DNA from: Burkholderiales bacterium 67-32
GTDB lineage: Bacteria; Pseudomonadota; Gammaproteobacteria; Burkholderiales; Burkholderiaceae_B
Length of the DNA stretch: 64,000 nt
Direction: 5' to 3'
Assembly: GCA_001898625.1 (NCBI GenBank)
Contig: MKUP01000010.1
Coordinates: forward strand, 434,001-498,000
Position 1 is the stretch's first letter; each line of letters begins with the position of its first letter. Made by a program: the position numbers and the translations under genes. Positions 1 through 11,588 of this stretch are shown here, piece by piece. The notes under the pieces were generated by a model. The model worked only from the letters and a program-made list of their open reading frames with translations. It was not told the origin of the DNA and searched no databases.

Positions 1-99
1 CACGCCGAAGATCAGCGAAAGCCCCGCCGCCACCAGGAACAGCGACGAGGCATTGGCCAGGCCGTTGAGCGCCTGGATGAACAGTCCCGAAAAACTCAT
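1..99 (-). CDS. Branched-chain amino-acid type ABC transporter permease (LivH-like), N-terminal fragment
   Basis: Only the first 33 codons lie in the window; the gene runs leftward off the edge. The visible N-terminus is an amphipathic start followed by a hydrophobic helix with the GLSLIFGV segment typical of LivH permeases, which form the inner-membrane channel of HAAT-family importers. An AAGGGG ribosome site precedes the ATG. It follows the two DUF1185 genes in the same direction, so it is probably the first transport gene of the same operon and would import the substrate of the ring-cleavage pathway. That role is inference from context; the substrate cannot be read from this fragment. Confidence 0.75.
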   Translation of the reverse strand, partial: MSFSGLFIQALNGLANASSLFLVAAGLSLIFGV

Positions 100-177
100 G
101 CGTGGCCCCTTCTGGACGGAAGGCTGGTTGTACGGGCGGCGTGGATGGTGCGCCGCCGTTCCGGATGCCGGTCGGAC

Positions 178-762
178 CTAGCGCAGGCCGTCCTTGCCCT
201 GGATCTCGGACACTTGCAGGCCACCCACGCGCGGCAGGGGGCGCCCGCCGTCGGTCACGGCCACGGCCACAACGATCTCGCCCGCGCGCGGCGCATCGGC
301 CACCCGCGCTTCGACGGCGTCGAAATGGCTGCGCACGTAAGCCGCGTCCTTGTGGCCCAGCGGCACGTCTATCGCCGTGCCCAGCCCGCCGATCTTCTTG
401 GCGGACGGTACCAGCGCCGCGCCCCGCTCCACCGCCTCGCGCAGCGGCGCCCCGAGGCGGGGATGCAAAATGGCGGCCGCATGCTCGAGTTCTCCGGCCG
501 CGCCGACGATGGCCGCCTTGCCGTAGCTGTGCGCCTGCCCAGGCTCGATGCCCAGCGCCTGCACGCATTTTCCACCCAGCAGACCACCCAGCTCCTCGCC
601 GATGGCGACCAGGTCATCGAGGTTCTCGACGTAGCGGCCGGCATGCGGATTCTCGATCACCGCCATCGCCACCGCCTTGCGCACGGGCTTGTCCAGCGTC
701 TGTCCCATCTCCACACGGGTCTCGTCCACCTGCACGATCAATTTCCGGATCTTGGCCGACAT
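178..762 (-). CDS. DUF1185 / amino acid synthesis family protein (copy 1)
   Basis: A soluble 194-residue protein of the PF06684 (DUF1185) family. Established knowledge: a Bordetella member has a solved structure, a variant of the chorismate-mutase-type fold, and a role in amino-acid metabolism was suggested, but no reaction is proven. Seen here: the family signatures NPHAGRYV near residue 38 and AAYVRSHFDA near residue 139. No signal peptide or membrane segment is present. AGGAG lies 8 nt before the ATG at 762. It is a diverged tandem paralogue of the next gene upstream (800-1423), and together they may form a heteromer. The setting beside 6-hydroxynicotinate reductase suggests a step on a cyclic or ring-opened nitrogen compound; this is inference. 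Confidence 0.8.
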   Translation of the reverse strand: MSAKIRKLIVQVDETRVEMGQTLDKPVRKAVAMAVIENPHAGRYVENLDDLVAIGEELGGLLGGKCVQALGIEPGQAHSYGKAAIVGAAGELEHAAAILHPRLGAPLREAVERGAALVPSAKKIGGLGTAIDVPLGHKDAAYVRSHFDAVEARVADAPRAGEIVVAVAVTDGGRPLPRVGGLQVSEIQGKDGLR

Positions 763-799
763 CTTCGATGCTCCTGGATAGTTTCAAACAAGAACGGGA

Positions 800-1423
800 T
801 TAGCGCTGACCGTCCCATTGCGCGATATCGGCGGCCGCCAGGCCACCCACGCGGGCATGGATGCGCGCCCCGGTGCTCATGGCCAGGACGACCACCAGTT
901 CGTCGGCCCGCGGAGCGCCCGGCACGCGGACCTCCATGGCGTCGAAATGGCTGCGCACATAGGCGGCGTTGATGTGGATCATCGGCACGTCCAGCGCGGT
1001 GCCCGGCGCGCCCACCTTCTTGGTGGACGGCACGATGGACAGCGCATTGCCAGGCTGTCCCGTCTTCGTGTCCGCCTCGCGGTCGCCCTTCCAGCCGAGT
1101 AGCTCGCGCATGGCGTATCCGCCCGGCACGTGCCACAGGGCGCCATGCTCCAGTTCGCCCGCTTCGCCCACCACGGCGCCTTTGCCATAGCCCTGGATAT
1201 CGCCGGGCGACACAGCCATGGCGGCCAGGAGCCGGCGCGCCATGTCCACCCCCACCGGTTCGAGCGCTTTCATGGCGGGCAGGATGTCCGGCACGTACCG
1301 CCCCGCGTAGGGGTTCGTCAGCACGGCGCCGATGGCGCCGCGCCGCAGGGGCCGGGCCGGCGGCGGGCCGGATTCGTGGAAGATGTCTTCGACCTGCGTG
1401 AAGATGCGTCGGATCTCGATCAT
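800..1423 (-). CDS. DUF1185 / amino acid synthesis family protein (copy 2)
   Basis: A 207-residue paralogue of the neighbouring DUF1185 protein, sharing the NPYAGRYV motif, the AAYVRSHFDA block and the APRADELVV block. The frame is open further upstream, but the ATG at 1423 has an AGAGG ribosome site at a good distance and gives the family length, so the longer 221-residue form starting at 1465 is not preferred. It is co-oriented with the UPF0280 gene (58-nt gap upstream) and with copy 1 (37-nt gap downstream). Function is unknown. Two copies kept side by side suggest either a heteromeric enzyme or two successive reactions in the same pathway. Confidence 0.8.
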   Translation of the reverse strand: MIEIRRIFTQVEDIFHESGPPPARPLRRGAIGAVLTNPYAGRYVPDILPAMKALEPVGVDMARRLLAAMAVSPGDIQGYGKGAVVGEAGELEHGALWHVPGGYAMRELLGWKGDREADTKTGQPGNALSIVPSTKKVGAPGTALDVPMIHINAAYVRSHFDAMEVRVPGAPRADELVVVLAMSTGARIHARVGGLAAADIAQWDGQR

Positions 1424-1480
1424 GCGTGCCTCTGGATGAATGAAGCGCCGGGGCCGCACGGACACCGCCCCGACATGGAA

Positions 1481-2374
1481 TCAAGCCATTGCCCCTCCGG
1501 CCTCCACCGGCGCCGGCGCCCGCGACCGGGACGGCATCCGGCCGGCCAGCCGCCCCTGCCCCTGGCATATCAGCGCCGCGCCGACGATGGCCCCGTGCCG
1601 CACCAGTTCCTCCGCCATCGCCTGCCCGGCGTCCAGCGCTTCGCCCACGGCCGCCTCCGGCAGCCGCGGAACCTGTACCGTGACCAGCCTCTCGCCCAGG
1701 TCCGAGTCGTCCTTGATCGCGCAGGCGGGACGGCGAACGATGGCCGCATCGTCGATGTCGACCGCGTTGGCGATGACGGTGGCCGCGGCATCGGCGGCCG
1801 CCGCATCGCCCGCCAGCACGGTCACGCTGTCGGCGATGCCCAGCGAAAAACTCCGTCCCCGCCAGCCGCTCGTGGCCACACCCCGTATGGGCATGCCGGC
1901 ATCGATGTCCGTCTCGCCCTCGAAGCGTGCTCGTCCGGGCGTCCAGCGCCGGCCGGGATCCGCGCACAGCGCGATACGGGTGCGGGTGCCCGGCGCCAAA
2001 TGCAGGGCGATGTCGCCGCCGTTGTTGACCCACGCGCGCGCCATGCCGGGCACGCGGTAGTGCGTCATGATTTCGTCTGCCACCGCGCCCGCGACCGCCG
2101 CCATCGACGTCAGCGCATGGCGGGACAAGGGCGAGCAGGCCCGCCACATGCGGCGCGCCACCGGCCCCTGCAGCATGCACCTGGAACCCACCAGGCGCCG
2201 CAATTCAGGCAGTTCCGCCACCAGCTCCGGCAATAGCCCGCCGAAGCGTTCCCATGCCGCCTCGTGCGCCGCTTCCACGGCTCTCTGTTCGCCATCCGCG
2301 AGCAGGATCAGATCGATGGGGCCATGGGAGAAGTGCCATCGGCCTCCCGGCAGGCGGGCTCGCAGGGCGTGCAT
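1481..2374 (-). CDS. UPF0280 family protein (ApbE-like fold)
   Basis: A 297-residue protein of the UPF0280 family, which is related in fold to ApbE-type flavin transferases and is biochemically uncharacterised. Visible features are a central AWVNNGGDIALHL segment and a GWRGRSFSLGIADSVTVL segment, the latter typical of the family. The ATG at 2374 is chosen because upstream sequence in this frame overlaps the 3' end of the reductase gene and reads as low-complexity shadow. It follows the reductase by only 7 nt and is very probably translated with it. One possible role is flavinylation or cofactor maturation for the iron-sulfur/flavin reductase; this is inference. Confidence 0.8.
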   Translation of the reverse strand: MHALRARLPGGRWHFSHGPIDLILLADGEQRAVEAAHEAAWERFGGLLPELVAELPELRRLVGSRCMLQGPVARRMWRACSPLSRHALTSMAAVAGAVADEIMTHYRVPGMARAWVNNGGDIALHLAPGTRTRIALCADPGRRWTPGRARFEGETDIDAGMPIRGVATSGWRGRSFSLGIADSVTVLAGDAAAADAAATVIANAVDIDDAAIVRRPACAIKDDSDLGERLVTVQVPRLPEAAVGEALDAGQAMAEELVRHGAIVGAALICQGQGRLAGRMPSRSRAPAPVEAGGAMA

Positions 2375-2381
2375 GTCCGCC

Positions 2382-3977
2382 TCAGCCCAACATGGGCGGC
2401 CGACCGAGCGGCCACGGATTGAGCTCGCCCCCCCTGGCCCAGCGCCGCCCCGTGGGGGCTCCGTCATGGTGCCACGCGCCCGCGCGCAGGACCTCGTCCA
2501 GCGGACGCACATAGTCCATGTGCCCGCCCAGTTCCCGGTAATCATCCCGCCTCATGCTGAATTCGATGGGGGCGACGATCGCGGGCGTAGGCACGGTGCC
2601 GAAGCTGTTGTCGGGCATGCGCAGCACGTCCGCCATGACGGTGATGCCGCCGCCGGGCCAGACATAGGCCGGCGCGCCGCCCATCGTCACGTTCACCAGC
2701 AGCTTCTTGATCGACCGGGTCAGCAATACGGGGTTTTCGGTCACTCCCGCGCGCAGGCTGCCGCCCGCGCCCGCCAGGAACATGACTGAAGCCAGCGACG
2801 GCTCGCAGTTCTCGCCGATCCGGGCCACCACCGCCGCCACGTCCTCGGGCATGGGCACCTCGCGCGGTACGAGGGCCTCGTCCAGCACGTACCAGGCGGC
2901 ATGCTCTCCCGTGGTGGAGGTCATCAGGAGCCGCAGGCCGGGCCAGGCCACCTGTTCGTCCCAGCCTTCGATGATGGCCAGCGGATCGCTGATATCGGTG
3001 CCGCCCCACCCCGTTCCCGGATTGGCCACCTGGAAATAGCGGCCGGGGGTGGACTTGCGTCCCTTGATCCGGATGCCCGAATCGCGTGTCGCCAGGCATC
3101 GCCCGGCCTGATGCTCCGTCAGCACGCCGGTGATGTGATCGTCCACCACGACCACTTCGTCGACCTTGCCATACAGCTGCTTGGCGAAGATGCCGATGGT
3201 GGCCGACCCGCAGCCCACGCGCATGCGCTGTTCCTCGACGCCATTCACCACCGGTGGGCGGCCCGCCTGCACGACGATGCGCGCGCCGCCCTCGATCTCG
3301 AGTTCCACGGCCTGTTTGTTGCCCAGTGTCTGCATCACGTCCAGCGTGACGCGCCCTTCCTTCTTGCTGCCCCCGGTCAGATGGTGGACACCGCCGAGCG
3401 ACAGCATCTGCGAACCGTATTCGATGGTCGTCACATGGCCGACCACCTCGCCTTTGCAGCGTACGTCGGCCTGCTCCGGCCCCAGGTAGCGGTCGGTGTC
3501 TATCTTCACCTTCAGGCTGCAATAGCTGAAGATGCCTTCGGTCACCACCGTCACCATGTCCACACCCTCGACCTGCGAGGAAACGATGAACGGCGCGGGT
3601 TTGTAGTCCGGGTATGTGGTCGACGAACCGATGCCGGTCACGAAGACTTCGTTGGCGCGCAGCAGGTCGCCGTCCCAGTCGGAGGGCGAAGCCAGCTCCC
3701 CGTCGCCGTCGGGTGCGAAAGGCACCAGCGCGCTGCCGTCTCCTTCCAGCTTGCGCCGCAGCAGCACCACCGGGTCCACCCGCACCAGGTTGCCGTCGAC
3801 GTTGGCGTAGCGATCGCAGGCACCCGAGCGGCCTTCGGTGATCTGGCACAGCACCGGACAGGCGTTGCATTCGATCTTGCCGGTGCTCATGCGCTCGTTA
3901 CGCGGCTTGGCACGCTCGAGCACCACGACGTCCGGGCTGTCTTGCTGGGGGCTTGCGGTATCGATCGGTTCGGACAT
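2382..3977 (-). CDS. hnr: 6-hydroxynicotinate reductase
   Basis: A 531-residue protein resembling 6-hydroxynicotinate reductase of Eubacterium barkeri, which uses reduced ferredoxin to convert 6-hydroxynicotinate to 1,4,5,6-tetrahydro-6-oxonicotinate in anaerobic nicotinate breakdown. The N-terminus carries a clear iron-sulfur ligand set, C37-x2-C40-x3-C44-x9-C54. The rest is a long soluble domain with many glycines (VGCGSATIGIF, NPGTGWGG, WPGGGITVMADV). The start at 3977 has a GAAGGG site; the open frame upstream of it is intergenic. It is divergent from a ferredoxin, a ferredoxin reductase and an enamidase, the partners that this reaction needs. Assignment is by recognition of the family and operon logic; the true substrate could be a related hydroxypyridine carboxylate. 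Confidence 0.8.
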   Translation of the reverse strand: MSEPIDTASPQQDSPDVVVLERAKPRNERMSTGKIECNACPVLCQITEGRSGACDRYANVDGNLVRVDPVVLLRRKLEGDGSALVPFAPDGDGELASPSDWDGDLLRANEVFVTGIGSSTTYPDYKPAPFIVSSQVEGVDMVTVVTEGIFSYCSLKVKIDTDRYLGPEQADVRCKGEVVGHVTTIEYGSQMLSLGGVHHLTGGSKKEGRVTLDVMQTLGNKQAVELEIEGGARIVVQAGRPPVVNGVEEQRMRVGCGSATIGIFAKQLYGKVDEVVVVDDHITGVLTEHQAGRCLATRDSGIRIKGRKSTPGRYFQVANPGTGWGGTDISDPLAIIEGWDEQVAWPGLRLLMTSTTGEHAAWYVLDEALVPREVPMPEDVAAVVARIGENCEPSLASVMFLAGAGGSLRAGVTENPVLLTRSIKKLLVNVTMGGAPAYVWPGGGITVMADVLRMPDNSFGTVPTPAIVAPIEFSMRRDDYRELGGHMDYVRPLDEVLRAGAWHHDGAPTGRRWARGGELNPWPLGRPPMLG

Positions 3978-4145
3978 TTGCTCAAACCCTTCAGATGCGA
4001 CACAGGCCTTGCCGTGCCAAATATTTTTTATGTAGTATTCACTACATTCAATGTTGCAAACACTACATTGAGCACAATCTAGCGCAATTGGTTTGGCTTC
4101 GCAATGTGATTTTCCCTGCCCCTCAGGGGCGAAAAGGAGATCTGG
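3978..4145. promoter_or_regulatory. Divergent promoter/operator region of the ring-cleavage cluster
   Basis: This 168-nt gap separates the two arms of the cluster and is markedly AT-richer than its surroundings. It contains a perfect dyad TGTAGT-ATTC-ACTACA at 4031-4046 and a second looser dyad, CAATGT and ACATTG, at 4049-4070. CACTACATT is directly repeated at 4040-4048 and 4061-4069, exactly 21 bp (two helical turns) apart, as expected for cooperative binding of a dimeric repressor or activator. No regulator gene of the cluster is inside the window. No convincing -35/-10 pair was found for either arm. Confidence 0.6.
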
Positions 4146-4469
4146 ATGACACATGTGGTCAGCGATGCCTGCATCCGATGCAGGTACACCGATTGTGTCG
4201 ATGTCTGTCCGGTGGACTGCTTCAGGCAAGGCGCCAACTTCCTAGTCATCGACCCCGACGAATGCATCGATTGCGCGGTCTGCATCCCCGAATGTCCCGT
4301 GGGCGCGATTTATGCGGAAGAAGACCTGCCAGAAGACCAGCGAGCATTCGTCGACATCAACGCCGACCTGTCGCGGCAATGGCAGAGCATTACCCGGCGC
4401 GCCGGCCCGTTGCCTGACGCCGACGACTGGAAGGACAAGACCGGCAAACTCGCCTATCTCGAACGCTAA
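4146..4469 (+). CDS. fdxA: 7Fe ferredoxin (FdxA / Azotobacter FdI type)
   Basis: A 107-residue ferredoxin closely resembling Azotobacter ferredoxin I, including its long C-terminal tail ending GKLAYLER. Cysteines 9, 17 and 50 are placed to bind a 3Fe-4S cluster and cysteines 21, 40, 43 and 46 a 4Fe-4S cluster; C12 and C25 are the usual extra cysteines. A strong AAAAGGAG ribosome site precedes the ATG. It is followed 17 nt later by a ferredoxin-NADP reductase and sits opposite 6-hydroxynicotinate reductase, so it most likely carries NADPH-derived electrons to that enzyme. The role as dedicated electron carrier is inference from context. Confidence 0.9.
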
Positions 4470-4486
4470 TCGCCCTGGAGCCGACC

Positions 4487-5260
4487 ATGGCCGCATTTCA
4501 CGAAGAAACCGTTCTCTCCGTCCATCACTGGACCGACCGCCTGTTCACTTTCAAGACCACGCGCGATCAGGCGCTGCGGTTCAGCAACGGGCACTTCACG
4601 ATGATAGGACTCAAGGTGGACGGCAAACCGCTGCTTCGCGCCTACAGCATCGTCAGCGCCAACTACGAGGAACACCTGGAGTTCCTCAGCATCAAGGTCC
4701 CGGACGGCCCGCTTACCTCGCGTCTCCAGTACATCCGGGTGGGCGACGCCATCCTGGTCGGCCGCAAGCCCACCGGAACCCTGCTGACCGACTATCTGCT
4801 GCCAGGCAAACGCCTATACCTGCTGTCCACCGGCACCGGTCTCGCCCCCTTCATGAGCATCGTCCGCGACCCCGAGTCGTACGAGAAATTCGAGCAGATC
4901 ATCCTTGTCCATGGCGTCAGGCAGGTGGACGAGCTGGCCTATCACGACCTCCTGGTCCAACACCTGCCCAATCACGAATTCCTGGGCGAACTGGTCAGCA
5001 GCAAGCTGCGCTACTACCCCACCGTCACGCGCGAGTCCTATCGCAACATGGGACGCATCACGGAACTCATTGAAGGCGGCAAACTGTTCGACGACCTCGG
5101 GACCCCACCGCTCGATCCCGAGCATGACCGCATCATGCTGTGCGGCAGCCCCTCGATGCTGCGCGACCTCAAGCAGATGCTGGAGCAGCGCGGCTTCGAC
5201 GAAGGCAATACCTCCACCCCCGGCGACTTCGTCATCGAACGCGCTTTCGCCGAGCAATAA
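4487..5260 (+). CDS. fpr: Ferredoxin--NADP+ reductase
   Basis: A 257-residue flavoprotein of the bacterial Fpr family, which exchanges electrons between NADPH and ferredoxin. The FAD-binding RAYSIVS motif is near residue 50, a GTGLAPF motif for the pyridine nucleotide is near residue 114, and LCGSPSML near residue 218 matches the NADP-binding C-terminal region. The family length is normal and no transit peptide or membrane segment is seen. The gene follows fdxA directly, the same pairing as Azotobacter FdI/FPR. In this cluster it would regenerate reduced ferredoxin for the ring reductase. A second, housekeeping fpr elsewhere in the genome is likely but cannot be checked here. Confidence 0.88.
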   Translation: MAAFHEETVLSVHHWTDRLFTFKTTRDQALRFSNGHFTMIGLKVDGKPLLRAYSIVSANYEEHLEFLSIKVPDGPLTSRLQYIRVGDAILVGRKPTGTLLTDYLLPGKRLYLLSTGTGLAPFMSIVRDPESYEKFEQIILVHGVRQVDELAYHDLLVQHLPNHEFLGELVSSKLRYYPTVTRESYRNMGRITELIEGGKLFDDLGTPPLDPEHDRIMLCGSPSMLRDLKQMLEQRGFDEGNTSTPGDFVIERAFAEQ

Positions 5261-5295
5261 CGCTACGTTCCCACCCCCCCCACAGAGGAAGCGAC

Positions 5296-6489
5296 ATGGC
5301 AGAAGCCGCAAGCACCGCGAAGTCTGGCAAGGTCGTCATCCAGAACATCGGCCTGCTCCTTTCGGGCGACATCGACCGTCCCGTCCTGGACGCCGACACC
5401 ATCGTCGCGCGCGACGGCGTGATTGAAACCGTCGGCAGGCAGGCCGATTGCGATACCTCTCAGCCGGACCTGCTGATCGACGCGCGGCGCACCTGTGTCG
5501 CGCCGGGACTGATCGACAGCCACGTCCATCCCGTCTTCGGCGACTGGACGCCGCGGCAGGGCCAGTTGGGCTGGATAGATTCCACCATGCACGGCGGGGT
5601 CACCACCATGGTGTCGGCCGGAGAAGTCCACCTGCCCGGCCGCCCCAAGGATATCGTCGGCCTGAAGGCCCTGGCCATTACGGCCCAGCGTGCCTTCGAC
5701 AACTTCCGCCCCGGGGGCGTCAAGGTCCTGGCCGGCGCGCCGGTGATCGAACAAGGCATGGTGGAACAGGACTTCAAGGACCTGGCCGACGCCGGCGTCA
5801 CGCTGCTGGGCGAGATCGGCCTGGGGTCGGTCAAAGCCGGGGCCGAGGCCGGCCGGATGGTGGCCTGGGCCCGCAAGCACGGCATACAAAGCACCATTCA
5901 CACCGGCGGGCCCTCGATACCCGGCTCCGGTCTGATCGACAAGGATGTGGTGCTGGAAGCCGACGCCGATGTGATCGGCCATATCAACGGCGGCCACACC
6001 TCGCTGCCCGAAAGCCACGTTTGCGAACTGTGCGAACGCTCGTCCCGTGCCATCGAGATCGTCCACAACGGCAACGAGAAAATCGCCATCGCCGCCGCGC
6101 AGGCCGCGTTGCAACTCAAATGTCCCCACCGCGTCATCCTGGGCACCGACAGTCCCGCCGGCTCGGGTGTCCAGCCCCTGGGCATGCTGCGCCTGATCGC
6201 CCTGCTCTCCAGCCTGGGCAATCTTCCCGCCGAACTGGTGTTCTGCTTCGCCACCGGCAACACGGCCCGCATCCGCAACCTGAACTGCGGCCTGATCGAA
6301 CCCGGCCGCGCGGCCGACTTCGTTTTCATGGACAAGGCCCAGCACACGGCGGGCCGCACCCTGCTCGAAAGCGTGCAGTCCGGCGACATCCCCGGCATAG
6401 GCATGGTCATGATAGACGGCATCGTCCGCTGCCACCGCAGCCGTAACACCCCGCCCGCCACGGAAGTCCCGGTGATCGATCCGCACTGA
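5296..6489 (+). CDS. ena: Enamidase-like amidohydrolase (tetrahydro-6-oxonicotinate hydrolase)
   Basis: A 397-residue amidohydrolase-superfamily protein that strongly resembles Eubacterium barkeri enamidase, which opens 1,4,5,6-tetrahydro-6-oxonicotinate to 2-formylglutarate and ammonium. Metal ligands are visible in DSHVHPVFGD (H76 and H78), in the HTGGPSIPGSG stretch and in the LGTDSPAGSG stretch near residue 290. Recognised family signatures are GGVTTMVSAG, LPGRPKD, SGDIPGIGM and SRNTPPA. An AGAGGAA site at 5284-5290 fixes the start at 5296; the longer open frame upstream overlaps fpr. It closes the rightward arm and supplies the hydrolytic step after the reductase. A related ring-opening substrate is the main alternative. 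Confidence 0.85.
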   Translation: MAEAASTAKSGKVVIQNIGLLLSGDIDRPVLDADTIVARDGVIETVGRQADCDTSQPDLLIDARRTCVAPGLIDSHVHPVFGDWTPRQGQLGWIDSTMHGGVTTMVSAGEVHLPGRPKDIVGLKALAITAQRAFDNFRPGGVKVLAGAPVIEQGMVEQDFKDLADAGVTLLGEIGLGSVKAGAEAGRMVAWARKHGIQSTIHTGGPSIPGSGLIDKDVVLEADADVIGHINGGHTSLPESHVCELCERSSRAIEIVHNGNEKIAIAAAQAALQLKCPHRVILGTDSPAGSGVQPLGMLRLIALLSSLGNLPAELVFCFATGNTARIRNLNCGLIEPGRAADFVFMDKAQHTAGRTLLESVQSGDIPGIGMVMIDGIVRCHRSRNTPPATEVPVIDPH

Positions 6490-10049: not shown

Positions 10050-11588
10050 GTGCCTTCGCCTTCCCCCGCCCTGCCCGACCTGGACGCCTTCCGTCTCAGA
10101 CGTTTCCTGGAATCCCTGGACGAGGGCGCCTTTCTGCGCCAGCCCGAAGCGGCGCTGCGCGACGTTGCCGCCATCCTGGAACACAGCCCCAAGGCGGTTC
10201 TGATCGAACGCCCGGGCGACTCGGACATCCCCTTGTGCGGCAACGCCGCCGGCAGCCGTGAACGGCTTGCTCTGGCCTTCGACACCACACCGGCCGACCT
10301 GCCTGCCGAAGTGACCCGCCGGCTGCGCAACCAGCCCGAATTCGTCGAAATCCCCGCGTCCCAAGCGCCCGTCCAGCAGGTCGTCCTGCAAGGCGACGAG
10401 TGCGACCTGACCCAGCTGCCCGTCCATCTGCAGCACGGCCTGGACGGCGCGCCCTACATTTCCGCCTCCATCGACTTCACCCGGGATCCGGACACGGGCT
10501 GGACCAACGTGGGCGTGCGCCGCCTCATGCTGCGTGGCCGCCGCACCGCCGGGATAGACCTGGTCGCGCCGTCGGACCTGCGCGCCCTGTACCTGAAGCA
10601 GTCCGGCCGCGGCCAGCGGATGCCGATCGCCTTCGCGGTGGGTTCGAACCCCATCGACCACATCGCCGCCACCATGCGCATCCCCGGCGACGAACTGGGC
10701 CTGCTCTCCAGCCTGCGGGGTGCGCCGCTGCCCGTGGTCAAGTGCGTGACCAACGACCTGATGGTGCCGGCCGACGCGGAATTCATCATCGAAGGCTATC
10801 TGGACGAGGCCGGCCACGTCGAGCCCGAGGGCCCTTACGGCGAGTTCCTGGGCTACTACGGCGTGGTCAAGAAGAACCCCTTGTTCCACGTGACCGCCAT
10901 CACGCGCAGGCGCGATGCCGTGTTCCAGACCGCCACCATCAGTGGCCCCAACATGGCGTGGACCGACACCGCGCAGTTGAACGCACTACGTACCGAAGTG
11001 ATGATCTGGCGCGCGCTCGAGACCGCGGTGCGCGAAGTGCGCGGCGTCTTCGCCGCGCCGGCCAACGGCGGCATGTTCAACGTACGCATCGCCTTGCAGC
11101 AGCGCGTACCGGGCGAGGCCCGCAACGCCATCGCCGCGGTGTTCGGCTCGCTCTCGAACGTCAAGCACGTATTCGTGGTCGACCCGGACATCGACATCTT
11201 CTCGGACGCGCAGATGGACTGGGCCCTGGGTACGCGATTCCAGGCGGATCGCGACCTGGTGATCCAGACCGGCATGCGCGCCATGCCGCTGGACCCTTCG
11301 CTCAACGGCGCCCGCACGGGCGCCAAGGCGGGCTTCGACCTGACCCTGCCCCTGCTCGCCCCGGGTGCGCAACGCCCCCTGGATTACCGGGTTCCCGCCG
11401 CGCCACGCTACGAGGGCGCCCGCTTCGCCTCGATCGAGGCGGCGCTGGAGGACGGCCCCAAGTACTTCGAGGAACTGATGGCCGCGACCGGCAGCAACGA
11501 CGGCCGGGAGATCGTGCGCTGGCTGGAGGATACGGCTGGCAAGCGCCCCTTGGCCCGGGACGAAGAAGGCCGCTACCACTTCCGCTGA
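10050..11588 (+). CDS. UbiD-family decarboxylase
   Basis: A 512-residue protein of the UbiD family, (de)carboxylases that use prenylated FMN made by UbiX-type prenyltransferases. The family core EPEGPYGEF is at residues 258-266 and contains acidic catalytic residues; SGPNMAWTDT and GTRFQADRDLVIQ are further conserved blocks. The start is GTG at 10050 with GGAGAC before it; no ATG fits. It is followed by a Bug receptor in the same direction (61-nt gap), a pairing suggesting uptake and decarboxylation of an aromatic or unsaturated acid. No UbiX partner is present in the window, so the cofactor must come from elsewhere. The substrate is unknown. Confidence 0.85.
   Translation: MPSPSPALPDLDAFRLRRFLESLDEGAFLRQPEAALRDVAAILEHSPKAVLIERPGDSDIPLCGNAAGSRERLALAFDTTPADLPAEVTRRLRNQPEFVEIPASQAPVQQVVLQGDECDLTQLPVHLQHGLDGAPYISASIDFTRDPDTGWTNVGVRRLMLRGRRTAGIDLVAPSDLRALYLKQSGRGQRMPIAFAVGSNPIDHIAATMRIPGDELGLLSSLRGAPLPVVKCVTNDLMVPADAEFIIEGYLDEAGHVEPEGPYGEFLGYYGVVKKNPLFHVTAITRRRDAVFQTATISGPNMAWTDTAQLNALRTEVMIWRALETAVREVRGVFAAPANGGMFNVRIALQQRVPGEARNAIAAVFGSLSNVKHVFVVDPDIDIFSDAQMDWALGTRFQADRDLVIQTGMRAMPLDPSLNGARTGAKAGFDLTLPLLAPGAQRPLDYRVPAAPRYEGARFASIEAALEDGPKYFEELMAATGSNDGREIVRWLEDTAGKRPLARDEEGRYHFR

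Follow-up and report, generated by a model that had tools for sequence, protein, structure and literature searches.

Nicotinate fermentation in Eubacterium barkeri (Alhapel 2006) involves a 6-hydroxynicotinate reductase (Hnr) and a ring-opening enamidase, and PMC3511419 reports reduction via THON in the aerobe Azorhizobium caulinodans as well, the Hnr of the type found in Bradyrhizobiaceae SG-6C being 42% identical to the E. barkeri enzyme. A related gene cluster lies at the left end of the window, meaning the whole analysed stretch of 64,000 nucleotides from Burkholderiales bacterium 67-32 (G000:C10:434001-498000; genome of 6.66 Mb in 34 contigs). The first-pass annotation had placed Hnr, an FdxA-type ferredoxin, the ferredoxin-NADP reductase Fpr and an enamidase together here, and all four were located; the observation is real and its reading right in the main. 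Its view of the combination as an anaerobe's, surprising in a betaproteobacterium, has to be given up, because the reductive route has been published for aerobic A. caulinodans and so is not new in an aerobe. The module is already known in kind, hence no new pathway is involved. What is new is the unusual, probable entry enzyme beside the known module, a Rieske oxygenase, and a UPF0280 protein as partner of Hnr.

From the nicotinate cluster of A. caulinodans and SG-6C (PMC3511419), that of the window differs in having no nicotinate dehydrogenase and in having a Rieske oxygenase as neighbour. With E. barkeri it shares an enamidase that is a clear homologue and the name of the ring-reduction step; it differs in that the first-pass annotation saw no mutase or isomerase genes and none was met in the stretches read, the genome not having been searched for them, and in the NADPH-linked electron supply proposed here. 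We propose, with a probability of roughly 0.6 for the explanation as a whole, that a Liv-type ATP-binding cassette (ABC) transporter would import a pyridine carboxylate. In the window's genus the pathway probably starts from a methylated pyridine, such as N-methyl-6-pyridone-3-carboxylate or its precursor trigonelline, whose methyl group a Rieske-type enzyme would remove; this step would replace, or stand next to, the hydroxylation of nicotinate by a molybdenum enzyme. Hnr would then reduce the 6-hydroxynicotinate-type ring with electrons passed from NADPH through Fpr to FdxA, and the enamidase would open the reduced ring to ammonia and a formylglutarate-type product, probably going on to glutarate, with UPF0280 most likely maturing Hnr by attaching a covalent flavin in the manner of ApbE. 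Among these parts, the reductive Hnr/enamidase route very probably operates. The gene content, the homologies, the conservation, the co-occurrence and the predicted fold are observations, and the substrate, the path of the electrons, the flavinylation, the demethylation and the fate of the product are inferred.

Hnr, the enamidase and the conservation of their block

Hnr is encoded on the minus strand (2382..3977) and takes its name from the annotation of its relatives; searches with Hnr itself gave no NCBIfam match at E <= 0.001, no Pfam match over cut-off and, in the PDB, nothing below E 0.1. Relatives with 58.8-77.3% identity occur in 26 of 72,556 plasmid records, the gene under the match being annotated as 6-hydroxynicotinate reductase in 17, as a hypothetical protein in three and not at all in six. 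Since seven cysteines are conserved over 147 aligned rows (C37, C40, C44, C54 and C391 in 146 of them, C153 and C256 in all), Hnr is probably an Fe-S protein. E. barkeri Hnr is reported to carry a covalent flavin, one [2Fe-2S] and two [4Fe-4S] clusters, a set that would need more cysteine ligands than the seven conserved ones. A longer Hnr frame from 4229, which would add a Cys-rich stretch, was rejected, as it overlaps fdxA and crosses operator-like repeats. The likely start is a short MTEH(T/S)(K/R)TDGL segment found in all 25 relatives with an inspected upstream frame, a comparably Cys-rich upstream frame being clear among these only in L024. One further genome (G682:C1:2969811-2971261, in L173 and L174) matches Hnr in two segments that overlap, lie in different frames and join near profile position 244, either a frameshift or a split enzyme, with UPF0280 directly after it.

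The enamidase gene (5296..6489, plus strand) encodes a protein whose residues 11-390 of 397 align with E. barkeri enamidase (PDB 2vun, E 8.9e-106, 357.6 bits), so that the comparison proposed in the first-pass annotation yields a clear homologue; the aligned part includes the stretches that carry the metal ligands in such amidohydrolases. The genes for FdxA (4146..4469; 166.1 bits with the NCBIfam model FdxA_Protbact, cut-off 135) and Fpr (4487..5260; its best match in NCBIfam is the ferredoxin--NADP(+) reductase model, at 158.8 bits, under the cut-off of 390) precede it on the same strand, all three running divergently from the Hnr block, and electron supply from NADPH by way of Fpr and FdxA, as proposed earlier, appears the likely route. 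Both carriers look like second copies, since further stretches of the genome with 74% DNA identity to them lie on C22 (for Fpr) and on C14 (for FdxA).

The grouping of these genes is not due to chance, because much the same set recurs in 86 compared Hnr loci. The reading as a reductive Hnr/enamidase module is supported. The 86 loci, all picked for holding Hnr, comprise the best 80 of at least 568 Hnr relatives confirmed in a scan of genome contigs, two loci from other genomes and four plasmid records; L016, L017 and L018 also supplied query proteins, and L012 and L013 were excluded because L014 and L015 are longer copies of them. The best 80 are nearly all from Burkholderiales or other Betaproteobacteria, three being labelled only Gammaproteobacteria, Proteobacteria or uncultured bacterium. 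Counts are rough, since contig ends truncate many of the loci and a Liv match was scored at any place in a locus: UPF0280 was found in 83, the second PF06684 copy in 79, the binding protein in 76, Fpr in 75, LivHM in 73, the enamidase, the first PF06684 copy and a TetR regulator in 72 each, NicA in 59, NicB in 52, FdxA in 21 and the Rieske gene in 2. The low figure for FdxA counts against the proposed electron route, and a 'dedicated' ferredoxin, as the first-pass annotation had it, is not a general feature of such loci.

Hnr was present in 30 of 399 genomes in a sample of the order, in 32 of 398 in a sample of the phylum and in 15 of 111 from the window's own family, the window's genome being included each time; the family set contains one congener at 95%, while two further congeners had no Hnr. 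Four alphaproteobacterial plasmid loci (L017, L018, L019 and L181) have HyuA/HyuB-type genes in the vicinity of Hnr. No enamidase was matched in these four stretches, where a different enzyme perhaps opens the ring; L182 has both the HyuA/HyuB-type genes and an enamidase match.

The intergenic region between Hnr and FdxA contains two tandem palindromes of the ATGTAG...CTACAT type (4030..4068), the first perfect (ATGTAGTATTCACTACAT at 4030) and the second, at 4051, degenerate with four mismatches. When 14 loci were scanned on one strand, similar palindromes (<=4 mismatches) were found at or near the Hnr promoter in eight (L195, L016, L034, L021, L023, L052, L022 and L197); none was found in L009, L194 and L196, which hold the Hnr promoter incompletely, in L072, which is the other strand of L197, or in L180 and L181. 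The tandem palindrome is a candidate operator of the cluster's regulator.

The Rieske oxygenase and the proposed entry step

The Rieske oxygenase gene lies left of the window on the plus strand (C10:428289-429317, the longest frame starting from 428208; L009:13208-14317), followed by a Liv-type binding protein gene (C10:429394-430605, plus strand). The oxygenase has Rieske and VanA_C domains, both over cut-off, and shares these with dicamba O-demethylase DdmC and VanA-type oxygenases over a full-length match, the nearest PDB match being dicamba O-demethylase at E 1.5e-45 and the caffeine N-demethylases following lower, at 8e-16. No nicotinate dehydrogenase genes were found on the left flank of the window or within the cluster of the congener G1058, whose whole arrangement is identical, again without NicAB. 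The first-pass annotation had pointed to this flank for a molybdenum nicotinate dehydrogenase, a transporter and a regulator; an ABC transporter, a binding protein and two regulators are there, the Rieske gene is there also, and an adjacent molybdenum dehydrogenase was not found. 'Complete-looking' is thus doubtful for nicotinate itself, because a NicA-type gene is present in most Hnr loci yet not here and a Rieske oxygenase stands nearby.

Linkage of the two genes is seen beyond the window's genus. Two of the compared loci (L034 and L072, extended as L196 and L197) have a Rieske gene and a related binding protein near Hnr. Among the best 25 of 671 plasmid records with a Rieske match, each of the top ten also carries Hnr, at a distance of 2.1-2.7 kb, and one more, Sulfitobacter sp. 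S190, has it at 3.8 kb; in the annotated regions of three of these eleven records Hnr, UPF0280, two PF06684 genes, the Rieske gene, the binding protein, the permease and two ATPases are contiguous or nearly so. Downstream of the Rieske gene in L196, one unassigned gene is followed by genes for S-(hydroxymethyl)glutathione dehydrogenase (FrmA; 595 against 544 bits), S-formylglutathione hydrolase (FghA; 426 against 282), a ferredoxin reductase and a [2Fe-2S] ferredoxin, a set that would be expected of a formaldehyde-producing demethylase; the ferredoxin and reductase genes beside the Rieske gene were not seen in the window's genus.

Several observations speak the other way. Few of the 86 Hnr loci have a Rieske gene at all, and the stretch read in S. 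mediterraneus P3 contains Hnr and no Rieske gene. L034 and three Roseobacter loci have a molybdenum hydroxylase in addition to the Rieske gene. The Rieske-Hnr link holds in a minority, because eight of nine other Hnr genomes gave no match at E <= 1e-60 and the ninth (G621) has one of 38% identity, on a contig other than that of Hnr. On balance we lean slightly towards the Rieske enzyme being a demethylase for the Hnr pathway. Its substrate may be a methylated pyridine; from N-methyl-6-pyridone-3-carboxylate the substrate of Hnr would arise in one step, in keeping with the lack of NicAB. Methylated pyridines are produced by plants and marine algae, and the Rieske variant points to such compounds as possible substrates of the reductive route; among the homarine, trigonelline and Rieske papers listed, no title or abstract opening mentioned the cluster.

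UPF0280 as a probable partner of Hnr

The genes between LivHM and Hnr, absent from the first-pass annotation, encode two PF06684 proteins and the UPF0280 protein (COG2122; 1481..2374, minus strand), whose profile score lies over the curated cut-off (NF003322, 377.9 against 290 bits). Its predicted fold is of the ApbE type (Foldseek, VIA), VIA superposing it on ApbE-type chains over 202-219 residues at 3.1-4.0 Å. It shares this fold with the flavin adenine dinucleotide (FAD):protein flavin mononucleotide transferases ApbE, FmnB and Ftp, together with an invariant D-x-x-A-T and GGD; D195 and T199 are present in all 46 members compared and presumably correspond to the metal-site D and T of ApbE (TP0796). 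The Pfam ApbE family (PF02424) matches 39 of the 46 at E <= 1, the best at 4.9e-5. Among COG2122 proteins (MA1715, DvMF_0044, DVU1097), the last, solved as PDB 2o34, is the closest known structure by sequence and fold, and a search with NF003322 in 14 control genomes gave matches in two methanogens, both under cut-off.

Hnr and UPF0280 each occur in 16 of 213 genera in the phylum sample and in 16 of 159 in the order sample. Fisher values for co-occurrence are 6e-48 and 8e-42 respectively, which ignore kinship, so that the tally by genus is preferred; the two samples overlap, and four of the shared genomes, one of them the window's, have both genes. This near-perfect co-occurrence makes UPF0280 a strongly supported, testable partner of Hnr. 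One genome (G397) has Hnr without UPF0280, and another (G356) UPF0280 without Hnr. The latter, 97% complete, is the sole such case in the order sample, with UPF0280, one PF06684 gene and Liv genes on one contig (G356:C40, L198) and no Hnr match. The idea that G190 has neither a threonine at Hnr position 260 nor UPF0280 was rejected, as its UPF0280 sits on another contig.

That UPF0280 attaches a covalent flavin to Hnr in the manner of ApbE is the reading we narrowly favour, and much weighs against it besides the two unpaired genomes. The covalent flavin itself is one reported for E. barkeri Hnr, in a 2006 PNAS abstract. The window's protein reaches 17.6 bits with PF02424, under the cut-off of 25.6; a profile search reaches ApbE chains only at E 0.8; and TM-scores against the ApbE-type chains listed by Foldseek are low, at 0.31-0.50 by query length. 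The proposed target Hnr is without the canonical acceptor motif, which occurs in just 1 of 142 distinct sequences. Attachment at T260, in a GCGSAT segment resembling that motif, was considered and rejected, the position being variable (T in 95 of 147 rows, A in 45, V in 6 and S in 1). PMC5764234 reports a view that COG2122 homology stops short of the flavin-binding region of ApbE, and others treat COG2122 as a sulfide-handling protein.

UPF0280 may instead be a sulfur- or Fe-S-handling factor for Hnr that transfers no flavin, as suggested for COG2122 in methanogens and Desulfovibrio. According to PMC5764234, COG2122 is needed there with DUF39 and NIL/ferredoxin proteins for homocysteine synthesis, a partner unlike Hnr, and a persulfide role was suggested, while PMC12068725 terms MA1715 a sulfur trafficking protein; the seven conserved cysteines of Hnr would suit such a factor. 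The UPF0280 subfamily, however, has no conserved cysteine of its own (the best in 27 of 46), whereas the residues matching the ApbE metal site are invariant and the predicted fold is of the ApbE type, and we consider a pure sulfur role rather unlikely. Somewhat less improbable is an ordinary nicotinate cluster, in which a molybdenum nicotinate dehydrogenase encoded elsewhere makes 6-hydroxynicotinate and the Rieske enzyme serves an unrelated adjacent pathway. The frequency of NicA and NicB in Hnr loci and the rarity of the Rieske gene fit this, as does a NicAB-like three-gene set in the window's genome (C12:312503-316634; L106:12503-16634), two stretches of which are 53% and 46% identical to NicB of L016. 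By inspection, however, that set lies in a catabolic neighbourhood that contains neither Hnr nor an enamidase; of the three proteins, two match NCBIfam models of xanthine-dehydrogenase-like type and none matches a nicotinate dehydrogenase, for which NCBIfam may have no model; and the Rieske-Hnr linkage is seen again in distant Roseobacters and in the congener.

It is also conceivable, and the least probable of the alternatives, that a different hydroxypyridine, or a heterocycle related to it, is the true substrate of the module, the reductase name being inherited by homology. The substrate assignment of Hnr rests here on sequence, three of the alphaproteobacterial loci (L017, L018 and L019) pair Hnr with HyuAB-type genes where no enamidase match was found, and a paralogous enamidase/PF06684 pair in the window's genome adjoins an FAD monooxygenase. 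Against this, the similar cluster of strain SG-6C is tied to nicotinate and 6-chloronicotinate breakdown by homology and by growth and resting-cell assays, according to PMC3511419.

The published cluster includes families described there only as 'conserved proteins of unknown function', and what they do can now be tested; for UPF0280, a fold, a partner and a specific reaction that could be assayed are at hand. Flavinylation, if true, would recast COG2122 of methanogens and Desulfovibrio. More tentatively, and with the odds against it, COG2122/UPF0280 proteins might be cytosolic flavin transferases distinct from ApbE that act at a non-canonical site on ferredoxin-dependent reductases (Hnr and, if the idea is carried further, the DUF39/NIL-ferredoxin system with which methanogens and sulfate reducers make homocysteine), aerobes with the Rieske demethylase using N- or O-methylated pyridines via reductive ring opening.

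Neighbouring genes and PF06684 paralogues

Leftward on the minus strand the order is Hnr, UPF0280, two PF06684 genes, a LivH-LivM fusion, LivG and LivF, running out of the window. The LivH noted earlier at the window's edge is the first 99 bases (1..99) of the fusion permease, whose frame (L009:17207-19099; G000:C10:432207-434099) otherwise lies outside. The PF06684 proteins (DUF1185, 'amino acid synthesis'), a family with solved structures, are encoded on the same strand at 178..762 (copy 2; Pfam 238.7 bits against a cut-off of 27) and 800..1465 (copy 1; 226.9 against 27; PDB 3byq, E 1.7e-47), copy 1 having an internal ATG (MIEIRR) as an alternative possible start. Farther left of the window are genes for the TetR regulator, a PrpR-type sigma-54 regulator, a coenzyme A (CoA) transferase and, by inspection, a TTT-type binding protein. 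The transferase, CaiB (L009:9039-10172), has succinate--glutarate CoA-transferase as its best model (289.5 bits, under the cut-off of 750), and its relative in L016 adjoins a gene annotated as hydroxymethylglutaryl-CoA lyase. To the right of the enamidase, housekeeping genes begin with a phosphoribosyltransferase-like gene and purA, as judged from the translations.

PF06684 paralogues in the window's genome lie in other catabolic-looking clusters. One, on G000:C23 (L108:5737-8731), comprises an enamidase-like amidohydrolase 41% identical to the window's, a PF06684 protein (44%) and the FAD monooxygenase mentioned above. The stretch gave no match to Hnr, and PF06684 may be a companion of amidohydrolases that open rings. 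Within the window, a UbiD family decarboxylase at 10050-11588 (TIGR00148, 286.2 against 244.85 bits) followed, by inspection, by a TTT-type binding protein is probably another catabolic locus.

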